DNA of 64,000 nt, from positions 62,001 through 126,000 of the forward strand of contig NZ_QYRN01000008.1 in assembly GCF_003583935.1 (NCBI RefSeq). Reading direction: 5' to 3'. Below are positions 83 through 25,132 of this stretch, piece by piece. The translations under genes and the position numbers were made by a program. Each line of letters opens with the position of its first letter. Position 1 is the stretch's first letter. The notes beneath the pieces were generated by a model, which saw only the letters and a list, made by a program, of their open reading frames with translations, was not told where the DNA came from and did not search any database. This DNA comes from Aureimonas flava. Lineage in GTDB: Bacteria > Pseudomonadota > Alphaproteobacteria > Rhizobiales > Rhizobiaceae.

Positions 83-187
83 GGCGCTTGACGCGGGGGC
101 GATCCGCCCGGACCCTGAAACGCAAAGACCCGGCCATGTGGGGTTGCCGCCCCGGCCGGGTCATGAAGCGTGTTTACGGAGGCGACG

Positions 188-223
188 ATGCGCGATGGGA
201 CCGCGACCGTCAAGACGAGATGA
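188..223 (+). CDS. 11-aa leader peptide coupled to the next gene
   Basis: A good ribosome binding site (GGAGG at about 178-182) sits 5 nt before an ATG at 188. This frame encodes MRDGTATVKTR and stops at TGA 221-223. The stop overlaps the ATG at 220 of the next gene as ATGA. The downstream gene has no ribosome binding site of its own closer to its ATG. This is the arrangement of a translated leader that hands ribosomes on to a plasmid replication gene, as in IncFII-type rep control. Expression is inferred from layout only. Confidence 0.5.
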   Translation: MRDGTATVKTR

Positions 224-1551
224 GCGTCGAGACCGACGCGTTCGAGTGGGTCCGCGAGCGCGCCTACCAGCGCTGGGGCAGGACGCCAAAGGCCGAACGA
301 CGGGTCGAGGAGGTCGCGGCTTGGTGCGCCGACGCGTCCCGGGCGTGGCGCGCCGGGGGTGAGGGTAGGCATGAGCTATCCGATGCCCAGATCGGCAGCA
401 TGTCGCGCAGCATCGCCAGATTCGTCGTCGATCAGCTCGTGGAGTTTCGGAAGCGTCCGCCGGCCCGCACGACGGCCGAAGGACGGGCGACGGAGCGCCT
501 GCTGATGGCGACCGCCATTCCCGACTGGATCGAGGAGGACGGCGAGCGCGTCACGGCCCGGAAGGTCGCCGCCATCGCGCAGGTCAGTGAACGGAAGGCC
601 TCCCGCGCGCTTGCCGAGCGCCGCGGCGCGCCGAAGCGCGAGGCCCAGGCCGCGGCGCTCGACGGGCACGAGCGCGCGCTGTTCGACGTCGCGAATGCAC
701 TTCTTCCCGACGACGGCTTCTGCGTCCTGCGCGTGAGCGACCTGGAGGCGCGCCTCTGGCCCGAGCCGGCCGAGACCGACGCGGCCCGCCGCAAGCGCCG
801 CTCCCGTCTCCTGAAATCGTTCGAGGCCCTTCGACTGTTGTCGTTCCACGTCGTCGCGAAGGGCGACCTCTTGGCCCTTCGCCGTGGCAGGACGTGGAAG
901 CCCGACGACGCGGCGGCCCGGCTGGCTGCGGCGGCATCGAAGCCCGGTCTCGTCGCCTCCCTCCCGGCTCCTCCGTCGCGTGCCACGTTCTGGACCTCGA
1001 CCGAGGTCCGGGGCCTCGTGGCGACGCTGCGAGTAGCCCTGAAGAAGGGCTATGATCCCGACGTGTTCCGGGACTTCATCGCGATCCAGCGCGTCGTTCT
1101 CGACGGGCGCGCCACGGAGAATCTTCACCGCTTCGCCCATCGGATCAGCGGCGGCTACGGGTACTGGAGCAACGACCTGCCGACCTTCTTCTCCTTCGCG
1201 GCCGCGGGGCACTGGGGCATCCGCCTTGAACCGGGCGTCCGCGACGCGGTCGCCGAACTGGGGCGCCGCATCACCCTGCTGGAAGAGGACGGAAAATGGG
1301 GCCGATCGGCCGAGAGCGTCATGCACTCGCTCGAATGCTTCCAGTCCCGCGGCTCGCCCCTGTTCGAGTGCTTCGAGGCCGAGGGTCGGGCGCGGATCAC
1401 CGCGTTCCGGGCAATCATCGAGGTTCGCGACCGCGCCGGCGACTGGATCGACATCGATCAGGCGCTCGCCCTCTGCGATCGTCTTGCGCGCGAGGAGGAG
1501 GCGGGACGCTGGTCGGCCGAGCCTTATCTCAATCCGGACTGCCCATTCTGA
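220..1551 (+). CDS. Unknown 443-aa protein, candidate replication initiator
   Basis: I do not recognise a family. The open frame extends upstream to 25, but the ATG at 220 is preferred because the residues before it are low-complexity Arg-rich sequence from the repeat and because the stop of the leader peptide overlaps this ATG. Around residues 115-135 a helix-turn-helix-like stretch (VTARKVAAIAQVSERKASRA) suggests DNA binding. The C-terminal half is Trp/Phe-rich and globular. There are no membrane segments. The position between two 82-bp direct repeats, followed at once by a 25-bp inverted repeat, suggests a plasmid-type replication or control protein of the mobilizable element. That role is an inference from context only. 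Confidence 0.55.
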   Translation: MSVETDAFEWVRERAYQRWGRTPKAERRVEEVAAWCADASRAWRAGGEGRHELSDAQIGSMSRSIARFVVDQLVEFRKRPPARTTAEGRATERLLMATAIPDWIEEDGERVTARKVAAIAQVSERKASRALAERRGAPKREAQAAALDGHERALFDVANALLPDDGFCVLRVSDLEARLWPEPAETDAARRKRRSRLLKSFEALRLLSFHVVAKGDLLALRRGRTWKPDDAAARLAAAASKPGLVASLPAPPSRATFWTSTEVRGLVATLRVALKKGYDPDVFRDFIAIQRVVLDGRATENLHRFAHRISGGYGYWSNDLPTFFSFAAAGHWGIRLEPGVRDAVAELGRRITLLEEDGKWGRSAESVMHSLECFQSRGSPLFECFEAEGRARITAFRAIIEVRDRAGDWIDIDQALALCDRLAREEEAGRWSAEPYLNPDCPF

Positions 1552-1844: not shown

Positions 1845-2213
1845 ATGACCAGCCGCGTCGCCGACCCTCTGCACACCCTCTACGACGCGCTGGCCGCCCA
1901 GCAGGCGGCCCAGCCTACCCCTGTCCGTCACCTGCCCGCCGACGAGCGCCGCGCGTACATGCGCGAGGCCAAGCGCCGTTCGCGCGAGCGCCAGCGCGAG
2001 GCGGCCGAGGCCGGGTCTCCACAGGCGACGGACGACGCGATCCGGGCGGCGCTGGCCGACGCCGCGCTGATGATCCTCGCCACCGACGCTCCGGGCGCCG
2101 AGCAGGTCATGTCCGCGCTGCGCAGCGCCTTCCCCGGCCGCGGCGGGGTGGCCGGCACCGTCCGCGCCCGCTGCCGATCGGGGACGCTCCGGCCGACCCT
2201 CCTGCGGCCCTGA
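1845..2213 (+). CDS. Small charged protein of unknown function (122 aa)
   Basis: The ATG at 1845 is preceded by CCAGGA. The product is soluble. Residues 30-52 are dense in Arg, Glu and Lys (around REAKRRSRERQREAAEAG) and probably form a charged helix. A short hydrophobic helix follows (AALADAALMILATDAPG), and the tail is Arg-rich. This composition resembles small DNA-binding or partition/copy-control proteins, but I recognise no family. A probable operator palindrome lies 60 bp upstream, so autoregulation is possible. Confidence 0.5.
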   Translation: MTSRVADPLHTLYDALAAQQAAQPTPVRHLPADERRAYMREAKRRSRERQREAAEAGSPQATDDAIRAALADAALMILATDAPGAEQVMSALRSAFPGRGGVAGTVRARCRSGTLRPTLLRP

Positions 2214-2356: not shown

Positions 2357-3037
2357 GGCGGCAACGCCGAGACGCCGATCCGATCCCCGCAGGGGGTTAG
2401 AATTTTCGAGGCTCCGGCCGAGAGGTTCGCGTTTTCGATCCCCCTTGAGGGGTTTTGTGATCGGTCCCCTCGGGGGTCAGGAGAGAGCCGTCATAAGGCG
2501 GATCGAACCTAATGATCGTTCCGCGTAGCGGGTCCCGCATTCTGCCTCGGCTGAATGGGGGGGAAGGCGCTGGCACCGCGCCGTAGGATTACCCCACGGG
2601 GGATTCCTTTTACGGTGCCGACCGCCCTGCGCGAGCAGGGCTTCCCCTGTAAACGCAGGGGTCAACCAGTGTACGACGGTTCACCCGGCGCGCTGGCTCT
2701 ACCCTCCCTGCGCAAGCAGGGTTCCTCCCTTCGTGGGAGGTTGTCTCCTCGGCGACGGGGAGTGGATCGAAACTTATAGAAACCGCTGCACAAGCGGCTC
2801 TGAAATATACGTTGTCGCGAGACATCGTTCACCGCCGAACAGGCGGCTCCTCCCTTCGCGGGAAGGTGTTTCTGCCCTGCGAGAGCAGGGACCCGTTCTC
2901 CCCACACGTGGGAGGGCAAACCGAGGTGGGTAAAGCAGAGGTCTGCTGGTCCATCGGTCTCCCCACATGCGGGAGGGAAATCGCCCTGCGGAAGCGGGGC
3001 CATCTGCAAGACGGGGCGCTCCGGAAACGGGCGCCCC
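2357..3037 (+). ncRNA. Array of about 18 short hairpins, many with GNRA loops
   Basis: No convincing gene lies between 2214 and 3452. Instead there is a dense string of small perfect stems separated by short linkers. GNRA-capped examples: 2357-2368 (loop GCAA), 2625-2640 (GCGA), 2706-2721 (GCAA), 2745-2762 (GCGA), 2813-2824 (GCGA), 2875-2890 (GAGA), 2983-3000 (GGAA) and 3013-3037 (GAAA, bulged 10-bp stem). Others: CCCC/GGGG hairpins at 2385, 2441 and 2466, plus 2644-2661, 2724-2740, 2783-2797, 2832-2846, 2851-2863, 2898-2914, 2934-2947 and 2959-2975. Stem sequences recur: CCCTGC/GCAGGG, CTCCC/GGGAG and CCGCY/RGCGG families. GNRA loops appear only on the plus strand, which argues for plus-strand transcription. 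It matches no RNA family I know, and is inferred to be a structured noncoding RNA. Confidence 0.6.
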
Positions 3038-3452
3038 TTCGGCGTTTCTGAGGCCGAACCGCGGCCCCGCCCATCTCCTCACCGCCCGAAGCCTTGCGAG
3101 TCCTAGCGCCCGGCCGCCCCGGATTGTACGCAACCAAGGATTGCGACCCCCAATCCTTGTCAAGCCGCACCTCCCAATCCTTTGGGCGGTGAGCGTGAGA
3201 AAAACGTTCCGGTTTTCGTGATTTGGAGCCTTCGGATAGGTACGATTTTCCAGCGAGTCCTACCGCGTCGACAGCGTTTTCCGGCGAGTCCTTGTCAATG
3301 TTTTCCCATAAAAATCAGTGCCTTAAATTATTTTTCTTTGCGTCCGAAGCCCTGGACGCCGGGCCGCCTCCTGGGCATTTTCACTGACGACGGAGCCGCC
3401 CGGTCGCGGGCAATTCCGTCAACGTTCAGGATGCAACTTTAAGGAACATTCG

Positions 3453-5272: not shown

Positions 5273-5481
5273 GCGACCCGATGAATGCCCCGGTGGCGGG
5301 CGGCTTCCTCGCCGTGGTCATCGAGCTTTACGGCGTCGACATTGTTGCCGACGTGCTGCATGTCGACGCCGCGCAGGTCGCAGCGTGGCTTGAAACCGGA
5401 CCGCCTCTCTGGACCTACATCCGCATTTCGGAGTTTGAGGACAAGGTCGAGCGGGCCTCGAAAGACGTCCGACAGGCCTGA
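5269..5481 (+). CDS. Hypothetical small protein (70 aa)
   Basis: It starts at ATG 5269, overlapping the previous stop as ATGA. The central part (ELYGVDIVADVLHVDAAQVA, then WLETG) reads like a helix-turn-helix of the transcription-regulator type, so a small DNA-binding protein is possible. This is a reading of residue pattern only. It is the last gene of the tightly overlapping chain. Confidence 0.5.
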   Translation: MSDPMNAPVAGGFLAVVIELYGVDIVADVLHVDAAQVAAWLETGPPLWTYIRISEFEDKVERASKDVRQA

Positions 5482-6210: not shown

Positions 6211-8325
6211 CTAGGCCGCCGCTCCGGGGCCGCCGGCCGCCGTCGCCGCAGCCTTCGCCCCGAGCTTCATCCCGGCCTTCGCGCCGTGCCCGCCGTCCTC
6301 TGACCCGCCGCCCGTCCTGCCGGACCCTCCGCCGCCCGGCTTCGGAACGTGGCGGGCGCCGCCCGTGACCCCGGCGACGACCGTGTTCCCGGCGTCGTCG
6401 TCGCCCCACGACGAGGCGCTGTAGCCGATGAACTCGGCGACCTTGGCGGGCATCTGCGTGACCATCCGGTACGACCACTGGATGATGGACCACTGGACGT
6501 AGAGCATCACGACGACGGACACGATCACCCCGACCGCCCCGATCGTCTGGCCCGCCTGCGAGGACTTGAAGGCGGCGTTGTAGCCTTCCAGGAAGGCGTT
6601 GAGGATCACCGCGTTCATCATGTGCATGGCGACGAAGGCGCCGACGGTCACGATCGGTCGGAGCATCACGCCGACCAGCAGGGAGACGTAGCCCTGACGC
6701 TGCGCCTGTCCGACGAGCTCCGGCTCGTCCAGCCTCACGTGTAGGAAAGCCCATATCGGAACCGCGATCGCCGATTTCACGACCTCCCACGCCCATGCGG
6801 CCAGCGCGAACGTCATGTAGATGAACGGGACGAGCGGCACGAGGTAGCAGAGCATCGCCCCGACGACGACGGCGCCCGCGATCAGCGGCCAGCCAGCCAG
6901 CATCACGAAGTCGAGCAGGCCGCCGCCGATCCCGCCGAACACCGCGCTGCCGCTATAGGCGACAAGCGCCGTGGCCCAGGCTGCCTGCCCAGACACGAGC
7001 AGCAGGGACCCGAGCGACATCAGGTCCCCCATGGGATCGACGCGCACGCCGTCGTACCCCGTCAGGTAGTCGGTGACGGGCAGTGTGATCGACTCCACGA
7101 CCGCCGACAGGAGGTTGCTTCCCTGCGCCGCGTCCCCCGTCAGCGCCTCGCTCGTCGAGAGGGCGGCGAGCGCGGTTCCACGCCGTAGCTGGCCGTCCAA
7201 CGTCGCAAGGGCAGTTCCGACCGCCCCGTCCAGCGTCTCCCACGCCGCAGGGTCCGGCTTGGTGCGTTCCGCGCGTTCGGCGACGGCCTCGGCGGACACG
7301 AGCGACGAGTGCGCCAAGGTCCGGTAGTAGCTCCCAAGCGCGTACCAGCCCCGCTCCTTGATGTCCCGGAGGACGAGCGTGCGCATGTCGCCGTCGTCGC
7401 CGTTCGAGAGCTTGGCGGCCACCGCCGACAGGCCCCGGTCGTAGCGCTCGCCGGCCTCGCGCAGCGCGGCATCGACGCCCTCTCGAAGGTAGCCGAGCCG
7501 CGCGTAGGCCGTCTCCGCGTCCGGCCCCGCGACATGGGTCTCGGACAGCGTCTTGACCGCCTCCGCGAGCCGCGGAATCCACGCCATCGCGCGGGCCTCC
7601 GAGATTACCGCGGCGACCGCCGCACGCCGCGCGTGACCGAACTCTCCGGCGCCGAACGCGTCCGCCGTCGACAGCGACAGCGACCCGCAGGCCGGACCCC
7701 ACGACCACGCGTAGCCCGTCACCCGCGCGGGCTGGTCCTCGCCCCACGGGAACCAGCTTGCACGAGCCGGCGAGACGACATCCATGCCGGCCGGCGGGGG
7801 CAGCACCGCCGCCCCGTCGCCCTCGATCATCTGGTTCGCCCGCGCGGCGGCATAGGCCTGCGCGCAGACCTCGGACTCGATCACCGCGAGCACGACGTCC
7901 CGGCCGTTCGCCGACACGGGCGAGAGCGGATGCCCGTCGCGCAGCACGTACTCCGCCGCGCCGGCGGCGGCCGCGTTCGCCATGTTGAGGCCCGGCCGCG
8001 CGAACCCGTCCCGCAGCACGTAGTGGACGACGGACAGGCCGCCCGCGACCGGCACGAGGCACCCGAGGCCCAGGACGACGCGGATCATCGCCGCCGCACC
8101 CGACTGGCGCTCGGACAGCGCCTCGCCGCGCTCGGCCGCGCGCAGGACCATGGACAGCAGGGCGTAGGAGAGAACGCCGCAGGCGACGACGAGCAGGCCG
8201 GCCGAGAGGTAGCGGACGACGGTCGCGAACGCCGTGGTGTCCGACGACAGCGGCAGGATGGTGGTGACGATCCGCCACCCCACGTCCGTCGCGGGCGGTT
8301 CCTTCAGGAGGTCAGCCGGGCTCAC
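6211..8325 (-). CDS. DotA/TraY-like type IV secretion membrane protein
   Basis: A 704-aa polytopic inner-membrane protein. The GTG start at 8325 overlaps the stop of the upstream TraD-like gene as GTGA and has a G-rich ribosome site; the open frame extends further but without support. Two hydrophobic segments near the N-terminus (about residues 25-50 and 70-100) are followed by a long periplasmic region with paired cysteines (about residues 100-420). Then comes a cluster of strong membrane segments at about 450-640 (for example AGAVVVGAMLCYLVPLVPFI), and a Gly/Lys/Ala-rich tail. This layout matches the DotA/TraY family of type IVB conjugation systems. No other secretion-system genes are visible, so it may act with a system encoded outside the window. 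Confidence 0.7.
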   Translation of the reverse strand: MSPADLLKEPPATDVGWRIVTTILPLSSDTTAFATVVRYLSAGLLVVACGVLSYALLSMVLRAAERGEALSERQSGAAAMIRVVLGLGCLVPVAGGLSVVHYVLRDGFARPGLNMANAAAAGAAEYVLRDGHPLSPVSANGRDVVLAVIESEVCAQAYAAARANQMIEGDGAAVLPPPAGMDVVSPARASWFPWGEDQPARVTGYAWSWGPACGSLSLSTADAFGAGEFGHARRAAVAAVISEARAMAWIPRLAEAVKTLSETHVAGPDAETAYARLGYLREGVDAALREAGERYDRGLSAVAAKLSNGDDGDMRTLVLRDIKERGWYALGSYYRTLAHSSLVSAEAVAERAERTKPDPAAWETLDGAVGTALATLDGQLRRGTALAALSTSEALTGDAAQGSNLLSAVVESITLPVTDYLTGYDGVRVDPMGDLMSLGSLLLVSGQAAWATALVAYSGSAVFGGIGGGLLDFVMLAGWPLIAGAVVVGAMLCYLVPLVPFIYMTFALAAWAWEVVKSAIAVPIWAFLHVRLDEPELVGQAQRQGYVSLLVGVMLRPIVTVGAFVAMHMMNAVILNAFLEGYNAAFKSSQAGQTIGAVGVIVSVVVMLYVQWSIIQWSYRMVTQMPAKVAEFIGYSASSWGDDDAGNTVVAGVTGGARHVPKPGGGGSGRTGGGSEDGGHGAKAGMKLGAKAAATAAGGPGAAA

Positions 8326-8594
8326 TGTCCCGCCCCCTCGAACTCGGGCACGGGACCTCTCGCCATGTCGGCGAACAAGGCCGCGTCCCGCGGCTGCATC
8401 CGACCAACCAGCGCCGACAGAATCCAGTCCGGCGCAGTGCCGTCGCGCAGCGCCGCGAGCAAGGCGCCGCCGAGGACGACCTTGCGCCTCGTGTCGTCGC
8501 GGCGGCGAGCTTCCCGGAGCGCGGTGTCCGCGCTGGCGAGGGCCGCTTCGAGGCGCGCCTTCTTCTGCGCGAGCCGGTTGAGGTCGAGTGCCAT
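8322..8594 (-). CDS. TraD/MobD-like mobilization accessory protein
   Basis: A 90-aa protein. The start ATG at 8594 is preceded by GGGAGGA. An N-terminal coiled-coil-like helix (RLAQKKARLEAALASAD) leads into RRDDTRRKVVLGGALLAAL. This resembles the short RKxDTRxKIxLGG motif of TraD-type accessory proteins that accompany MobQ relaxases on Ti-like and RSF1010-like plasmids. It is transcribed away from the oriT, divergent from the relaxase operon, as in many mobilization regions. Its stop overlaps the GTG of the DotA/TraY-like gene, so the two are coupled. Confidence 0.65.
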   Translation of the reverse strand: MALDLNRLAQKKARLEAALASADTALREARRRDDTRRKVVLGGALLAALRDGTAPDWILSALVGRMQPRDAALFADMARGPVPEFEGAGQ

Positions 8595-8817
8595 GCGGTG
8601 TCCTCCCGTTCGTGCCGATCGACTCATCGCCGCCGGCGGAATCCGAAGCGCGGATCGGAAAACTCTTCCGCTCCGAGCGGGCCAACCGCCAGTTTTGCGA
8701 GGTTTCGTGCGGCCCGCAGGCACCCACGCGGAGCGCCCGACAGCCATGGTTCGGCGTCGGCTTGCGTCGCGCAAATCGGCGCCTGACGCTCTGCGTGGGG
8801 AAACCGGGAGAACCCGA

Positions 8818-9660: not shown

Positions 9661-11528
9661 CCTCGCTCCCGTCCAACGAGGCGTTGTTCCACCTGAACGC
9701 CAAGGTCATCCAGCGCTCCCGCGGCAAGAGCGCTGTCGCCGCTGCCGCCTACCGCGCCGGCGCGCGCCTCACCGACGCCCGCACCGGTTCCGTCTGGGAC
9801 TACACGCGCAAGCGCCACATCCTGGACTCCTACGTGACGGCCCCGGCCGGCGCGCCTGCCTGGGCGCTGGACCGCGAGACGCTGTGGAGCCGCGTGGAAC
9901 TCGCCGAGGTCCGCAGGAACTCCCAGACCGCACGCGAGATCGAGGTCAGCATCCCGCGCGACCTCCCACCGGCCGCGTGGCGCGCCTTTCTCGCCGACGT
10001 GGCGCGCCCCTACGTCGAGGCCGGGGCCGTGGTGGACACCTGCATCCACGTCCCGCCTGCCGCCGACAAGGCGCTGAACGCCCACGCGCACATGCTGATG
10101 ACCTGCCGTCGGCTGGACCCCGTCAGCGAGACCGGGTTCGCGAGGACCCGGAACAACGACCTCGCCGCCTTCTTCGAGAGCGGCGGGCGGCGCGGCGGGA
10201 CACGCGGCGACGCCCTGAAAGCCGAGCGCGGGCGCGTCGCCGCGGTGGTCAACGACCACCTCCGCCGCGCCGGGTCCCGCCGCCGCGCGGACCATCGCAG
10301 CTACGAGGCCCGGGGCGACCCACGCCCCCCCGAGCCGCACATCGGCGAGGGGCGGAAGTCCGCGACGATGCGGCGCCGGTCCCACGACCGTCGAACGATC
10401 GTCGTGGCGGGGCTCCGCCGGACCAAGACCCTCGAAAACCAGATCATCGAAGTGGAGAAAGAGATGGCACTGACCGCCCGAGGGTTCGCCCGCGCGCCTG
10501 CCCAAGACAAGAAGGCCCCGCGCCAGCAGGACTACAAGCTTTCGCTCCTTCGCGATCGCTTTCCGGACGGCGACTTCACGCCCTTCCGCGATGTCCTCTA
10601 CCTCGTGGACGCCAAGGACCCGAGGCGCACCCGAGTCCTGACCCGCGACGGCGCATGGGTGGAGGCGGACGACGAAAGCGGCACCGTGTCCCTGTGGGGG
10701 CCGCGCAGCGCGCAGGCCGCCGCACTCGCCGACGCGATCAGCGTTTCCACCGGCTACGGCGTCGACAGGATCGAGCGCACCGCAGCGGCCGGGAAGCCAG
10801 GCAAGAGCCGCCGCAAGGGCGCCATCCCCGAGGAGGAGGCCGTCAGTCTCGCGGACCGCTGGCGGCGGCGAGGTTTCTCGGACGTGACAGAGTCCCCGGC
10901 CGGGGTCCGCGTCGGGCTCGGCGGGCGCAGCCGCCTCTTGGACTCCGGCGACCACATCGACCTGATCGGCCCTGTCTCCGACCAAGCCCTACGCGCCCTC
11001 GCGTCGAAAGCCGCCGAGGACTGGGGCGGGACGCTCGAACTCGACGGCCCGTGGCCTCCGGAGGCGCAGGCTCGCCTCTGGACGGAGTGCCAGCGGCAGG
11101 GCGTGACCCTGGCCGGCTACACCCCGCCGCCCGCCGTCGCCGCCGCATGGGCGGCCGAAAGCGGTTCCGTCGCCGACACGTCAACGAAATTGCGAGCCGT
11201 ACGGTCGGAGACGGCCGAGGCGGACCTCCTCCTAGGCGCAGCGGCGGGCGACGTTGCGTCCCTCAAGCGCCTCGAACCCTCCCTCCGGGCCTTCGTGTCG
11301 GGCCACTGCGACGACGAACAGCGCCGCGACCTCGCGCGCGCCGACCGCGAGGACATCGTTCAGGCCCTCGCGGAGTTCCGGAAGTTGGGCGCGGCCGAGT
11401 TCGAGCGCCAGAAGGCTGAACGCCTCGCCGGGCGCCCGTCCATTTTCGATGCTCCGGCGAAGCCCGCCGATGCGCCGGCGCGGGATGCCGCCCCTGCGTT
11501 CGGGCGACGCTCGAATCCGATCGACTGA
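9657..11528 (+). CDS. mobA: MobA/MobL-family relaxase with C-terminal LPD7-like domain
   Basis: A 623-aa protein that should nick oriT at 8821/8822 and lead the strand into the recipient. The TTG start at 9657 overlaps the preceding TGA and has GGGAGG 10 nt upstream. The N-terminal relaxase domain (1-220) carries the MobA/MobL signature FHLNAKVIQRSRGKSAVAAA, followed by AYRAG, and the His triad region NAHAHMLMTCRR. The middle is basic and probably disordered (about 225-300). Residues about 390-500 (AVSLADRWRRRGF ... LWTECQRQGVTLAGY) resemble the LPD7 domain found behind many relaxases. The matching RSF1010-type oriT upstream supports the call. No coupling protein gene is visible in the window. 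Confidence 0.88.
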   Translation: MTSLPSNEALFHLNAKVIQRSRGKSAVAAAAYRAGARLTDARTGSVWDYTRKRHILDSYVTAPAGAPAWALDRETLWSRVELAEVRRNSQTAREIEVSIPRDLPPAAWRAFLADVARPYVEAGAVVDTCIHVPPAADKALNAHAHMLMTCRRLDPVSETGFARTRNNDLAAFFESGGRRGGTRGDALKAERGRVAAVVNDHLRRAGSRRRADHRSYEARGDPRPPEPHIGEGRKSATMRRRSHDRRTIVVAGLRRTKTLENQIIEVEKEMALTARGFARAPAQDKKAPRQQDYKLSLLRDRFPDGDFTPFRDVLYLVDAKDPRRTRVLTRDGAWVEADDESGTVSLWGPRSAQAAALADAISVSTGYGVDRIERTAAAGKPGKSRRKGAIPEEEAVSLADRWRRRGFSDVTESPAGVRVGLGGRSRLLDSGDHIDLIGPVSDQALRALASKAAEDWGGTLELDGPWPPEAQARLWTECQRQGVTLAGYTPPPAVAAAWAAESGSVADTSTKLRAVRSETAEADLLLGAAAGDVASLKRLEPSLRAFVSGHCDDEQRRDLARADREDIVQALAEFRKLGAAEFERQKAERLAGRPSIFDAPAKPADAPARDAAPAFGRRSNPID

Positions 11529-15588: not shown

Positions 15589-15679
15589 GGTCTGGCTCCG
15601 GATGAGGGCGGAGCGATCAGACGGAGTGTCGGGAAACACGGGCCGGACATGACTACTCGCCCGCGTGTGTTGCGGGTGG

Positions 15680-15742
15680 AGTAGGAGTCATCAGCCCATC
15701 GGGGAGCGGTTCGGCGCGAGGCCCGGCAGAATCCATTGCCGT
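15680..15742 (-). promoter_or_regulatory. Fluoride riboswitch (crcB motif) upstream of the CLC gene
   Basis: On the minus strand the stretch begins GGCAATGGATTCTGCC, continues through ACCGCTCCCC, and ends GGGCTGATGACTCCTAC. This is the conserved core of the crcB/fluoride motif. Directly 3', GACT-CCT-ACTC can pair with GAGT-AGTC (plus-strand 15,651-15,658) around a CCCGC/GCGGG stem, an alternative hairpin that would capture the 3' pseudoknot strand of the aptamer. That is a plausible switching structure. The CLC start lies about 90 nt downstream. Confidence 0.85.
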
Positions 15743-15880
15743 TCATGACGTCTACGTGATCGCCGCGAGCATTGTCAACGCGGGCCTCGTGCGTCGCGAG
15801 ATACGCCAACGGGGAACTGGTAGGCGAAGGGAATGTTGCTCTCTCCTGACGCAGTTTCCTGCGCCCTCGGAGATGTCACC

Positions 15881-24979: not shown

Positions 24980-25020
24980 CTTCCCAACCTCGCGAGAGCG
25001 CGTTACCGTCTCATCGCTAC

Positions 25021-25132
25021 GGGGATGGGGTTCCCCCACAACCGCCCGCGTCGGGCTGATGACTCCTATCGAAACCGCGGCGCATGCTTGGATTTCTCCG
25101 AGCATGCGAACCCATGTCGATAGGAGACCCGC
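25021..25132 (+). promoter_or_regulatory. Fluoride riboswitch with Shine-Dalgarno sequestration, upstream of crcB
   Basis: The aptamer runs 25,021-25,070: GGGGATGGGGTTCCCC, then ACCGCCCG-CGT-CGGGC, then TGATGACTCCTA, matching the fluoride motif core. The segment CTCCTATCGA (25,063-25,072) belongs to the aptamer's 3' strand. It is perfectly complementary to TCGATAGGAG (25,117-25,126), which contains the crcB ribosome site 6 nt before its ATG. A GCATGCTTGGA/TCCGAGCATGC stem (25,082-25,107) lies between and would bring the two together. So without fluoride the site would be hidden; with fluoride it is free. Confidence 0.9.

Follow-up and report, generated by a model that had tools for sequence, protein, structure and literature searches.

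A hairpin array on a probable conjugative element of Aureimonas resembles CRISPR repeats of two subtypes

Introduction

Why does an element of Aureimonas flava carry, in a short stretch without a gene, a dense string of small hairpins, and what might such hairpins bind? The array lies at positions 2357-3037 of the 64,000-nt stretch of DNA analysed here (the window), which is part of a 214,626-base contig of a 4.09-Mb genome. An earlier note, made from the letters alone, had singled it out as a candidate new structured RNA and suggested a protein sponge, a copy-control RNA, or a packaging or scaffold RNA.

RNA anti-CRISPRs (Racrs), or solitary repeat units, were described by Camara-Wilpert et al. 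2023 with tested I-C, I-E and I-F examples; function is experimentally shown for single units, whose hosts commonly carry a matching CRISPR-Cas subtype (PMC10651486). Viral CRISPR mini-arrays are also known, with repeats identical to those of the host and real spacers against rivals (PMC11656645).

Judged by sequence and structure, at least three hairpins of the array mimic CRISPR repeats of two subtypes, one I-C and two I-F; at that level the mimicry is established, as are the clustering of the units and their recurrence at another Aureimonas locus. We propose that the array probably encodes a non-coding RNA of ~0.7 kb on the plus strand, in which decoy CRISPR repeats follow one another and would blunt immunity; it would hence be a clustered, multi-subtype version of a Racr.

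Results

Genomic setting of the array

The features around the array are as follows.

178..1551, plus strand: putative replication initiator gene, without a Pfam, NCBIfam, PHROG or PADLOC match
1845..2213, plus strand: small ORF directly upstream of the array
2357..3037, plus strand: the whole hairpin array, as used for hairpin density, GNRA count and folding against shuffles
6211..8700, minus strand: DotA/TraY family protein of a type IVB (I-type) conjugation system (TIGR04346, 214.9 bits, cut-off 100)

The DotA/TraY gene implies that a type IVB (I-type) conjugation system is present on the element at least in part, and the array-bearing element is probably conjugative. The array sits between the small ORF and an iteron-like block, whose repeats are common to three Aureimonas elements. 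The repeats, AATCCTTGTCAA and CGAGTCCTTG, occur at 3145-3295 of the window, at 10200-10400 of L006 and at 4340-4420 of L073, beside an initiator-like gene (by eye). The sole other copy of the array that we found is identical: Aureimonas psammosilenae (L069, NZ_WEZG01000010.1) has the same DNA with 0 mismatches across the 6210 nt compared, so the two may be the same or a near-identical strain.

With the putative initiator gene on one side and the iteron-like block on the other, the array could act as DNA in the replication region, for instance as single-strand initiation hairpins or an origin-linked repeat cluster. We regard this as very improbable. An initiator-like gene upstream of the same block is also found in two further elements (by eye), one of which, G010, shares the next gene as well (80% identical protein); neither G010 nor the other, L073, has an array between gene and block. 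The array is therefore likely an accessory insert. The array of A. mangrovi, described below, sits behind dotA, and the GNRA loops of the A. flava array lie on one strand only.

We found 46 homologues of the small ORF, the named ones in Aureimonas, Mesorhizobium and Microvirga. It was rejected as a marker of arrays, as none adjoined it in five of the five loci read by eye (identical L069 aside). A hairpin-density screen of 22 small-ORF loci placed L069 first (14 per 600 nt) and a phage contig, L085, second; the latter is hairpin-dense at 2001-2600, with 13 per 600 nt. On another phage contig (L079, 4001-4333) a homologue directly precedes a terminase large subunit-like gene (by eye). A leader of ~60 bp, AAATGCCTTTATAAGGATGGGGGCTTGGGCC..., stands at 1-59 and 1669-1727 of the window, upstream of the initiator-like gene and of the small ORF respectively, and a related copy precedes the gene in L006 (by eye). 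Elsewhere in the window, two fluoride riboswitches score above the Rfam gathering level: 25012-25075 on the plus strand (58.6 bits) and 15675-15749 on the minus strand (43.9 bits).

Hairpin density and choice of strand

The array is real, and its stems exceed what shuffling yields. Counting perfect hairpins (stem of at least 5 bp, loop of 3-7), we found 12 in 2357-3037, whereas 1000 dinucleotide shuffles averaged 3.9 (sd 1.8) and never exceeded 11; the figure of about 18 short perfect stems given previously was not reproduced. Among 634 tiles of 681 nt, the top four by hairpin number (15, 14, 13 and 13) all overlie the array, and 11 of the 12 hairpins fall within 2624-2975. The stem sequence families noted before were confirmed.

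GNRA loops are concentrated on one strand, as the earlier note had said: with stems of at least 4 bp and G-U pairs allowed, 2357-3050 holds nine on the plus strand and none on the minus strand, compared with a mean of 0.45 and a maximum of 4 in 2000 shuffles and at most three on either strand in 620 other tiles of the window. Only three GNRA hairpins remain in the array when stems must have at least five Watson-Crick pairs, so the original count of at least eight holds for the permissive definition and depends on 4-bp stems or a G-U pair. The array folds better than shuffled controls, with z of -7.95 on the plus strand and -6.66 on the minus strand (20 shuffles per strand); since both strands do so, folding energy alone cannot pick the strand, and we chose the plus strand because of the GNRA bias and the repeat matches reported below. 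That GNRA loops matter in RNA alone is a weak argument, as the minus strand folds nearly as well and some GNNA loops stabilise DNA hairpins too.

At gathering level, Rfam has no match in the array; those to P36, naRNA4 and others are weak and below gathering. Plasmids gave no BLAST match to the region at E 0.01. A 36-bp match in G053, the sole other among 61 genomes, was rejected as coding by eye. We found no promoter for the array. A simple terminator scan lists 2853-2866 as terminator-like and does not list the hairpin at 3013-3045, which is nevertheless the probable transcript end.

Individual hairpins and the repeat models

Real repeats were collected by pattern: I-E from 19 and I-F from 25 of 398 genomes of the phylum, and I-C from 9 of 289 genomes of the class, of which G737 and G602 gave one chance-like match each. 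Covariance models were built from the distinct listed repeats (14 I-F, 19 I-E and 7 I-C sequences), with three single I-C pattern matches (L091-L093) excluded from the I-C model. The hairpins compare with these models as follows.

2357..2620, plus strand: first part of the array, with a single perfect 5-bp hairpin (2566-2582); its other stems are shorter, and those at 2357 and 2416 have GNRA loops
2624..2641, plus strand: GCCCTGC-GCGA-GCAGGGC, an I-E-like stem with one compensated pair and a GNRA loop, without the I-E handle (I-E model 8.0 bits, E 2.2, not significant)
2641..2669, plus strand: CCCCTG/CAGGGG then TCAACCAG, weakly I-E-like (I-E model 8.4 bits, E 1.5, not significant)
2706..2721, plus strand: CCCTGC-GCAA-GCAGGG, one base pair off the real I-E stem-loops CCCCGCGCAAGCGGGG (I-E model E 5.5, not significant)
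2724..2740, plus strand: CCTCCC-TTCGT-GGGAGG, loop as in some I-C repeats, without a handle (I-C model 8.6 bits, E 5.4, not significant)
2743..2773, plus strand: I-C mimic, GT and a 7-bp stem CTCCTCG/CGGGGAG (one U-G pair), GCGA loop and 11-nt handle TGGATCGAAAC (25.7 bits, E 1.4e-5)
2778..2805, plus strand: I-F mimic A, 5-bp stem CCGCT/AGCGG, loop GCACA, handle CTCTGAAA (I-F model E 0.016; CRISPR-DR4 20.6 bits)
2813..2824, plus strand: short hairpin TGTC-GCGA-GACA between I-F mimics A and B (in the GNRA count)
2827..2849, plus strand: I-F mimic B, GTTCACCGCCGAACAGGCGGCTC, handle lost after CTC (I-F model 23.4 bits, E 9.8e-5; CRISPR-DR4 21.1 bits)
2849..2866, plus strand: hairpin CCTCCCTTCGCGGGAAGG, without a handle (I-C model 8.5 bits, E 5.9, not significant)
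2875..2890, plus strand: CCCTGC-GAGA-GCAGGG, an I-E-like stem (I-E model E 5.7, not significant)
2895..2923, plus strand: CTCCC-CACACGT-GGGAG then GGCAAACCG, possible I-E mimic (I-E handle kept at 6 of 8 positions; not significant by alignment)
2956..2983, plus strand: CTCCC-CACATGC-GGGAG then GGAAATCG, possible I-E mimic (the array's best I-E alignment, equalled by 10 of 454 tiles)
2983..3000, plus strand: GCCCTGC-GGAA-GCGGGGC, an I-E-like stem with one U-G pair (in the GNRA count)
3013..3045, plus strand: strong G+C hairpin GGGGCGC/GCGCCCC then TTCGGCGT (weak Rfam P36 match, below gathering)

The first part of the array (2357-2620) has no match to the I-F, I-E or I-C repeat models at E<=10 and was assigned to no CRISPR subtype. 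The core CCCTTCGCGGG of the hairpin at 2849-2866 is also present in a real I-C repeat (G854).

Imitation of I-C and I-F repeats

In an unfiltered search of the 64-kb window, the best I-C match (E 1.4e-5) and the two best I-F matches (E 9.8e-5 and 0.016) fall inside the array, in a span of 107 nt, although the E-values are rough, a partial I-C match at 5377 reaching E 9.5e-4. The I-C unit matches a real I-C repeat in its 7-bp stem and 11-nt handle; its loop is shorter by one base. Mimic A follows the 5+5+5+5+8 layout of a real I-F repeat, with the last stem pair changed on both sides, and mimic B is identical at 21 of 22 nt to the real repeat GTTCACCGCCGCACAGGCGGCTTAGAAA and matches ~80% of the length of that 28-nt repeat. 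The two I-F mimics start 49 nt apart inside the hairpin cluster and may be copies of each other.

Tests that did not use the models gave the same picture for handles and alignments. Of the hairpins listed in the window (2316 on the plus and 2445 on the minus strand), the one at 2745 alone carries the I-C handle in all 11 nt (others reach at most 9), and 7 of 8 I-F handle positions are found only in mimic A (other hairpins reach at most 6). Plain alignment with six I-F and six I-C repeats scored the array at 40 for I-F against a maximum of 32, and at 36 for I-C against a maximum of 34, over 454 tiles. In a permissive Rfam scan, the type I-F family CRISPR-DR4 (RF01317) aligned weakly to both I-F mimics, with paired stem changes, at the bit scores given in the list, which are below the gathering score of 35.

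When 15 I-F sequences (11 mimics and 4 real repeats) were aligned, 75 of 75 stem cells paired, and two of the five pairs were changed on both sides; three of the four double-changed cells are in real repeats and one in a mimic. The number of pair types in these 15 sequences is not above shuffles, which favours kept pairing over active covariation.

Within the A. flava genome, 2743-2773 is the only I-C match at E<=0.001 among 150 candidates scored of 3795 found at first look. With 150 candidates scored per genome, I-C matches at E<=0.001 appeared in 2 of 21 Aureimonas genomes (the array and a shortened G009 match, coding by eye) and I-F matches at E<=0.1 in 3 of 21 (the array, A. mangrovi and a G017 match, coding by eye). 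No comparable match was present in the remainder of the A. flava contig (all but 2 kb), in the G010 contig or in 57% of a Microvirga plasmid. Both matches to a tailored I-F pattern were rejected as coding by eye, and a two-part pattern (I-C tail then I-F start) gave 15 stretches of viral contigs, none with an I-F stem by eye.

Single units of the array share the stem, loop and handle layout of type I-C and I-F CRISPR repeats, and the presence of such units could be read as one or more decayed real CRISPR arrays left without cas genes. We give this little credence. Near-identical, regular repeats are absent, two subtypes adjoin, no regular 60-66 nt spacing is seen, and the stem changes are paired rather than breaks. 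The A. flava genome has no Cas1 match, no Cas2 match and none of the three repeat patterns (I-E, I-F, I-C), so that a search covering Cas1, Cas2, Cas6f and these patterns gave no matching CRISPR-Cas subtype in the host. Cas6f above cut-off is found in 0 of 297 genomes of the order, with one weak match, and there is thus no I-F target at hand in close relatives.

GNRA hairpins with I-E-like stems

Four GNRA hairpins have the form CCCTGC-GNRA-GCAGGG (one with a U-G pair), an I-E-like stem changed at one base pair. Some real I-E repeats likewise have GNRA loops: L468 carries 19 copies, at 61-nt steps where counted, and its stem-loop CCCCGC-GCAA-GCGGGG differs from 2706-2721 by one compensated pair. 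On both strands together, I-E-like stems with a GNRA loop number four in the array, none in the remaining 63 kb and three in a 404-kb control. With any tetraloop, such stems number four plus-strand and three minus-strand in the array, 12 in the rest of the window and 46 in the control.

Only stem geometry and loop fit type I-E, and no match was significant. The I-E model was not accepted, as its best array match (E 1.5) ranks below six matches elsewhere in the window, and neither was the I-E alignment, in which 10 of 454 tiles score as high as the array. The I-E handle is missing from the four CCCTGC hairpins, which may be copies of each other; at least five of eight I-E handle positions occur on the plus strand in 10 of 36 array hairpins versus 300 of 2280 others. 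The CCCTGC-GNRA-GCAGGG pattern itself occurs in at least 120 stretches of viral contigs. An I-E origin of the GNRA hairpins is plausible.

On three phage contigs, diverged I-E-like units are spaced otherwise than at the usual 61 nt. L476 (3860-4160) has five at 48-51 nt steps, one of them with CCCTGC/GCAGGG, followed by a terminator by eye; L475 (11550-11950) has three before a terminator, at steps of 75 and 36; and L470 (1595-1720) has two before a terminator, at a step of 50.

A second Aureimonas locus and other clusters

In A. mangrovi (G006), behind dotA, an I-C-like hairpin with TGGATTGAAG (L298, 10090-10119) is followed by I-F mimics at 10143-10170 (E 8.3e-6) and 10245-10265 (E 0.034), 97 nt apart. 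A terminator follows (by eye), the whole lying within about 220 nt, with a MobA/MobL relaxase nearby. Taken alone the I-C-like unit is weak (16.3 bits, E 0.073), and the locus folds with z -4.05. Position and stems differ from those of the A. flava array; the pair of subtypes is the same. Between 10120 and 10240 of L298 lie two more hairpins, ACCGTC-GAATA-GATGGT and GAGCGCGAT...ATCGCTC, neither of which matches models R1 or R3 at E<=5.

Such co-location was not seen in the phage loci compared. In 80 of them selected for I-F matches (678 kb in all), the I-C model had one strong match, ~8 kb from the I-F units, and one at E 0.28; in 59 of 64 phage loci with I-C matches (leaving out L201, L207, L218, L223 and L252, which hold long arrays), the I-F model had nothing below E 0.7; I-C and I-F units close together were found in none of these 80 and 59 loci. 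Among 92 solitary viral matches screened for hairpin density, 13 were inspected, and several of those were coding or regular arrays by eye.

I-F units also cluster on other plasmids. A conjugative plasmid of Roseovarius indicus carries five in two intergenic clusters at 110-113 nt steps, each before a terminator-like hairpin and without an I-C unit. On a Sulfitobacter plasmid (L465, 1700-3108), 18 I-F repeat-like units at 74-94 nt steps alternate with further strong hairpins, the whole forming tandem units of ~245 nt; the intervening stretches recur, so this is not a CRISPR array. Most BLAST matches of the mimic regions in phages and plasmids were short and weak, and of 20 records from one such search six were inspected: Roseovarius is a mimic cluster, and the other five show none by eye. 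The same BLAST recovered a true I-F array beside cas6f in Salinimonas, which indicates that the likeness is to real I-F repeats. A Rhizobium match (C104, 22.3 bits) lies in a stretch without an annotated gene.

Could the repeat-like units instead flank guides that use a host Cas complex for repression or attack? CreA-like RNAs are one type of crRNA-like guide, and the array could be such an RNA or a mini-array. Mimic A keeps an I-F-like handle and mimic B begins 21 nt later, so that a crRNA-like product carrying a short guide could be freed by Cas6f cleavage. Mini-arrays have precedent in viruses (PMC11656645). Two phage contigs, L120 (1942-2260, six units) and L170 (17-275, five units), carry diverged I-F units before a terminator; they were rejected as mimic clusters because their regular steps of 59-60 nt make small CRISPR-like arrays more likely, which agrees with a guide locus, and they are not counted as support for our reading. 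Most handles in the A. flava array are broken, the spacing is irregular, neighbouring units belong to different subtypes, and intervening stretches recur in the Sulfitobacter cluster, and we judge a guide locus to be a rather improbable reading.

A further possibility is a structured RNA of another kind, whose stable hairpins would bind some unrelated RNA-binding protein or protect RNA ends, its CRISPR likeness being coincidental in GC-rich, hairpin-rich sequence. Most hairpins, including those of the first 260 nt and of the CTCCC, CCTCCC and CCCTGC families, have no significant model match, and neither Cas1 nor Cas2 has a match in the host. The resemblance to I-C and I-F repeats, however, extends beyond the stems to unpaired handles and loops, the array holds the window's best likeness for both models, and the two subtypes recur together in the second Aureimonas locus; we therefore hold this explanation to be unlikely, if somewhat less so than a guide locus.

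Discussion

We identify a dense array of plus-strand hairpins that includes look-alikes of I-C and I-F repeats. Of the roles suggested at the outset, a sponge-like protein-binding RNA on a mobile element is the best reading, whereas copy control, packaging and scaffolding found no support. The principle is known from Racrs, here in a clustered, mixed arrangement, and several of the hairpins are CRISPR-repeat look-alikes.

As with Racrs, the array consists of non-coding repeat mimics on a mobile element, here indicated by the I-C and I-F models, the tile control and DotA/TraY; Racrs occur on phages and plasmids and keep the stem with some changes (PMC10651486). The array differs in placing many units of at least two subtypes side by side, with handles partly lost, while Racrs are described there as solitary (PMC10651486); here the two I-F mimics lie less than 100 bp from each other. 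The loss of the handle in mimic B fits the known mechanism, because RacrIF1 works without a 5' handle on its product (PMC10651486). Viral mini-arrays (PMC11656645) resemble the array as repeat units on a mobile element without cas genes; the repeats of the array, in contrast, are diverged, mixed and irregularly spaced.

The published search kept solitary units only and dropped candidates whose 100-bp flanks were >70% identical to them, and SRUFinder demands at least 90% identity across most of the repeat and 41.1 bits (PMC10651486); clustered, diverged units would thus probably have been missed. In the open-access literature, the scope of our search (subscription papers and preprints lie outside it), we found no report of clustered or mixed-subtype Racrs.

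We infer that the array is transcribed, that its RNA binds Cas proteins and inhibits immunity, and that the I-E-like hairpins take part. Given that several hairpins look like repeats of different subtypes, Cas proteins of crRNA processing and of the backbone are the likely binding partners. In a recipient cell equipped with type I CRISPR-Cas, the crRNA-processing nuclease would bind and cut whichever hairpins match it; this nuclease would be Cas6f for the I-F hairpins, and we take it to be Cas5c/Cas5d for I-C and Cas6e for I-E. Because the cut pieces would lack a proper handle, full spacer and repeat, Cas subunits would be tied up in dead complexes, and immunity against the element would be blunted. 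Several subtypes on one transcript would suit an element that moves among hosts with different CRISPR systems, and placing different subtypes side by side would also keep proper crRNAs from forming.

More tentatively, and with somewhat less than even confidence, we suggest that the array is a polyvalent inhibitor, one plasmid transcript with diversified decoys against I-C, I-E and I-F at once, and that it may be one case of a broader class on conjugative plasmids and phages that has gone overlooked because searches look for solitary, near-identical units. Known RNA anti-CRISPRs are single repeat copies aimed at one system. If our proposal is true, a mixed-subtype cassette would bring to light a class that current searches, by the way they are built, probably throw away, offer multi-target CRISPR off-switches and explain how a conjugative element could pass through hosts with different immune systems.
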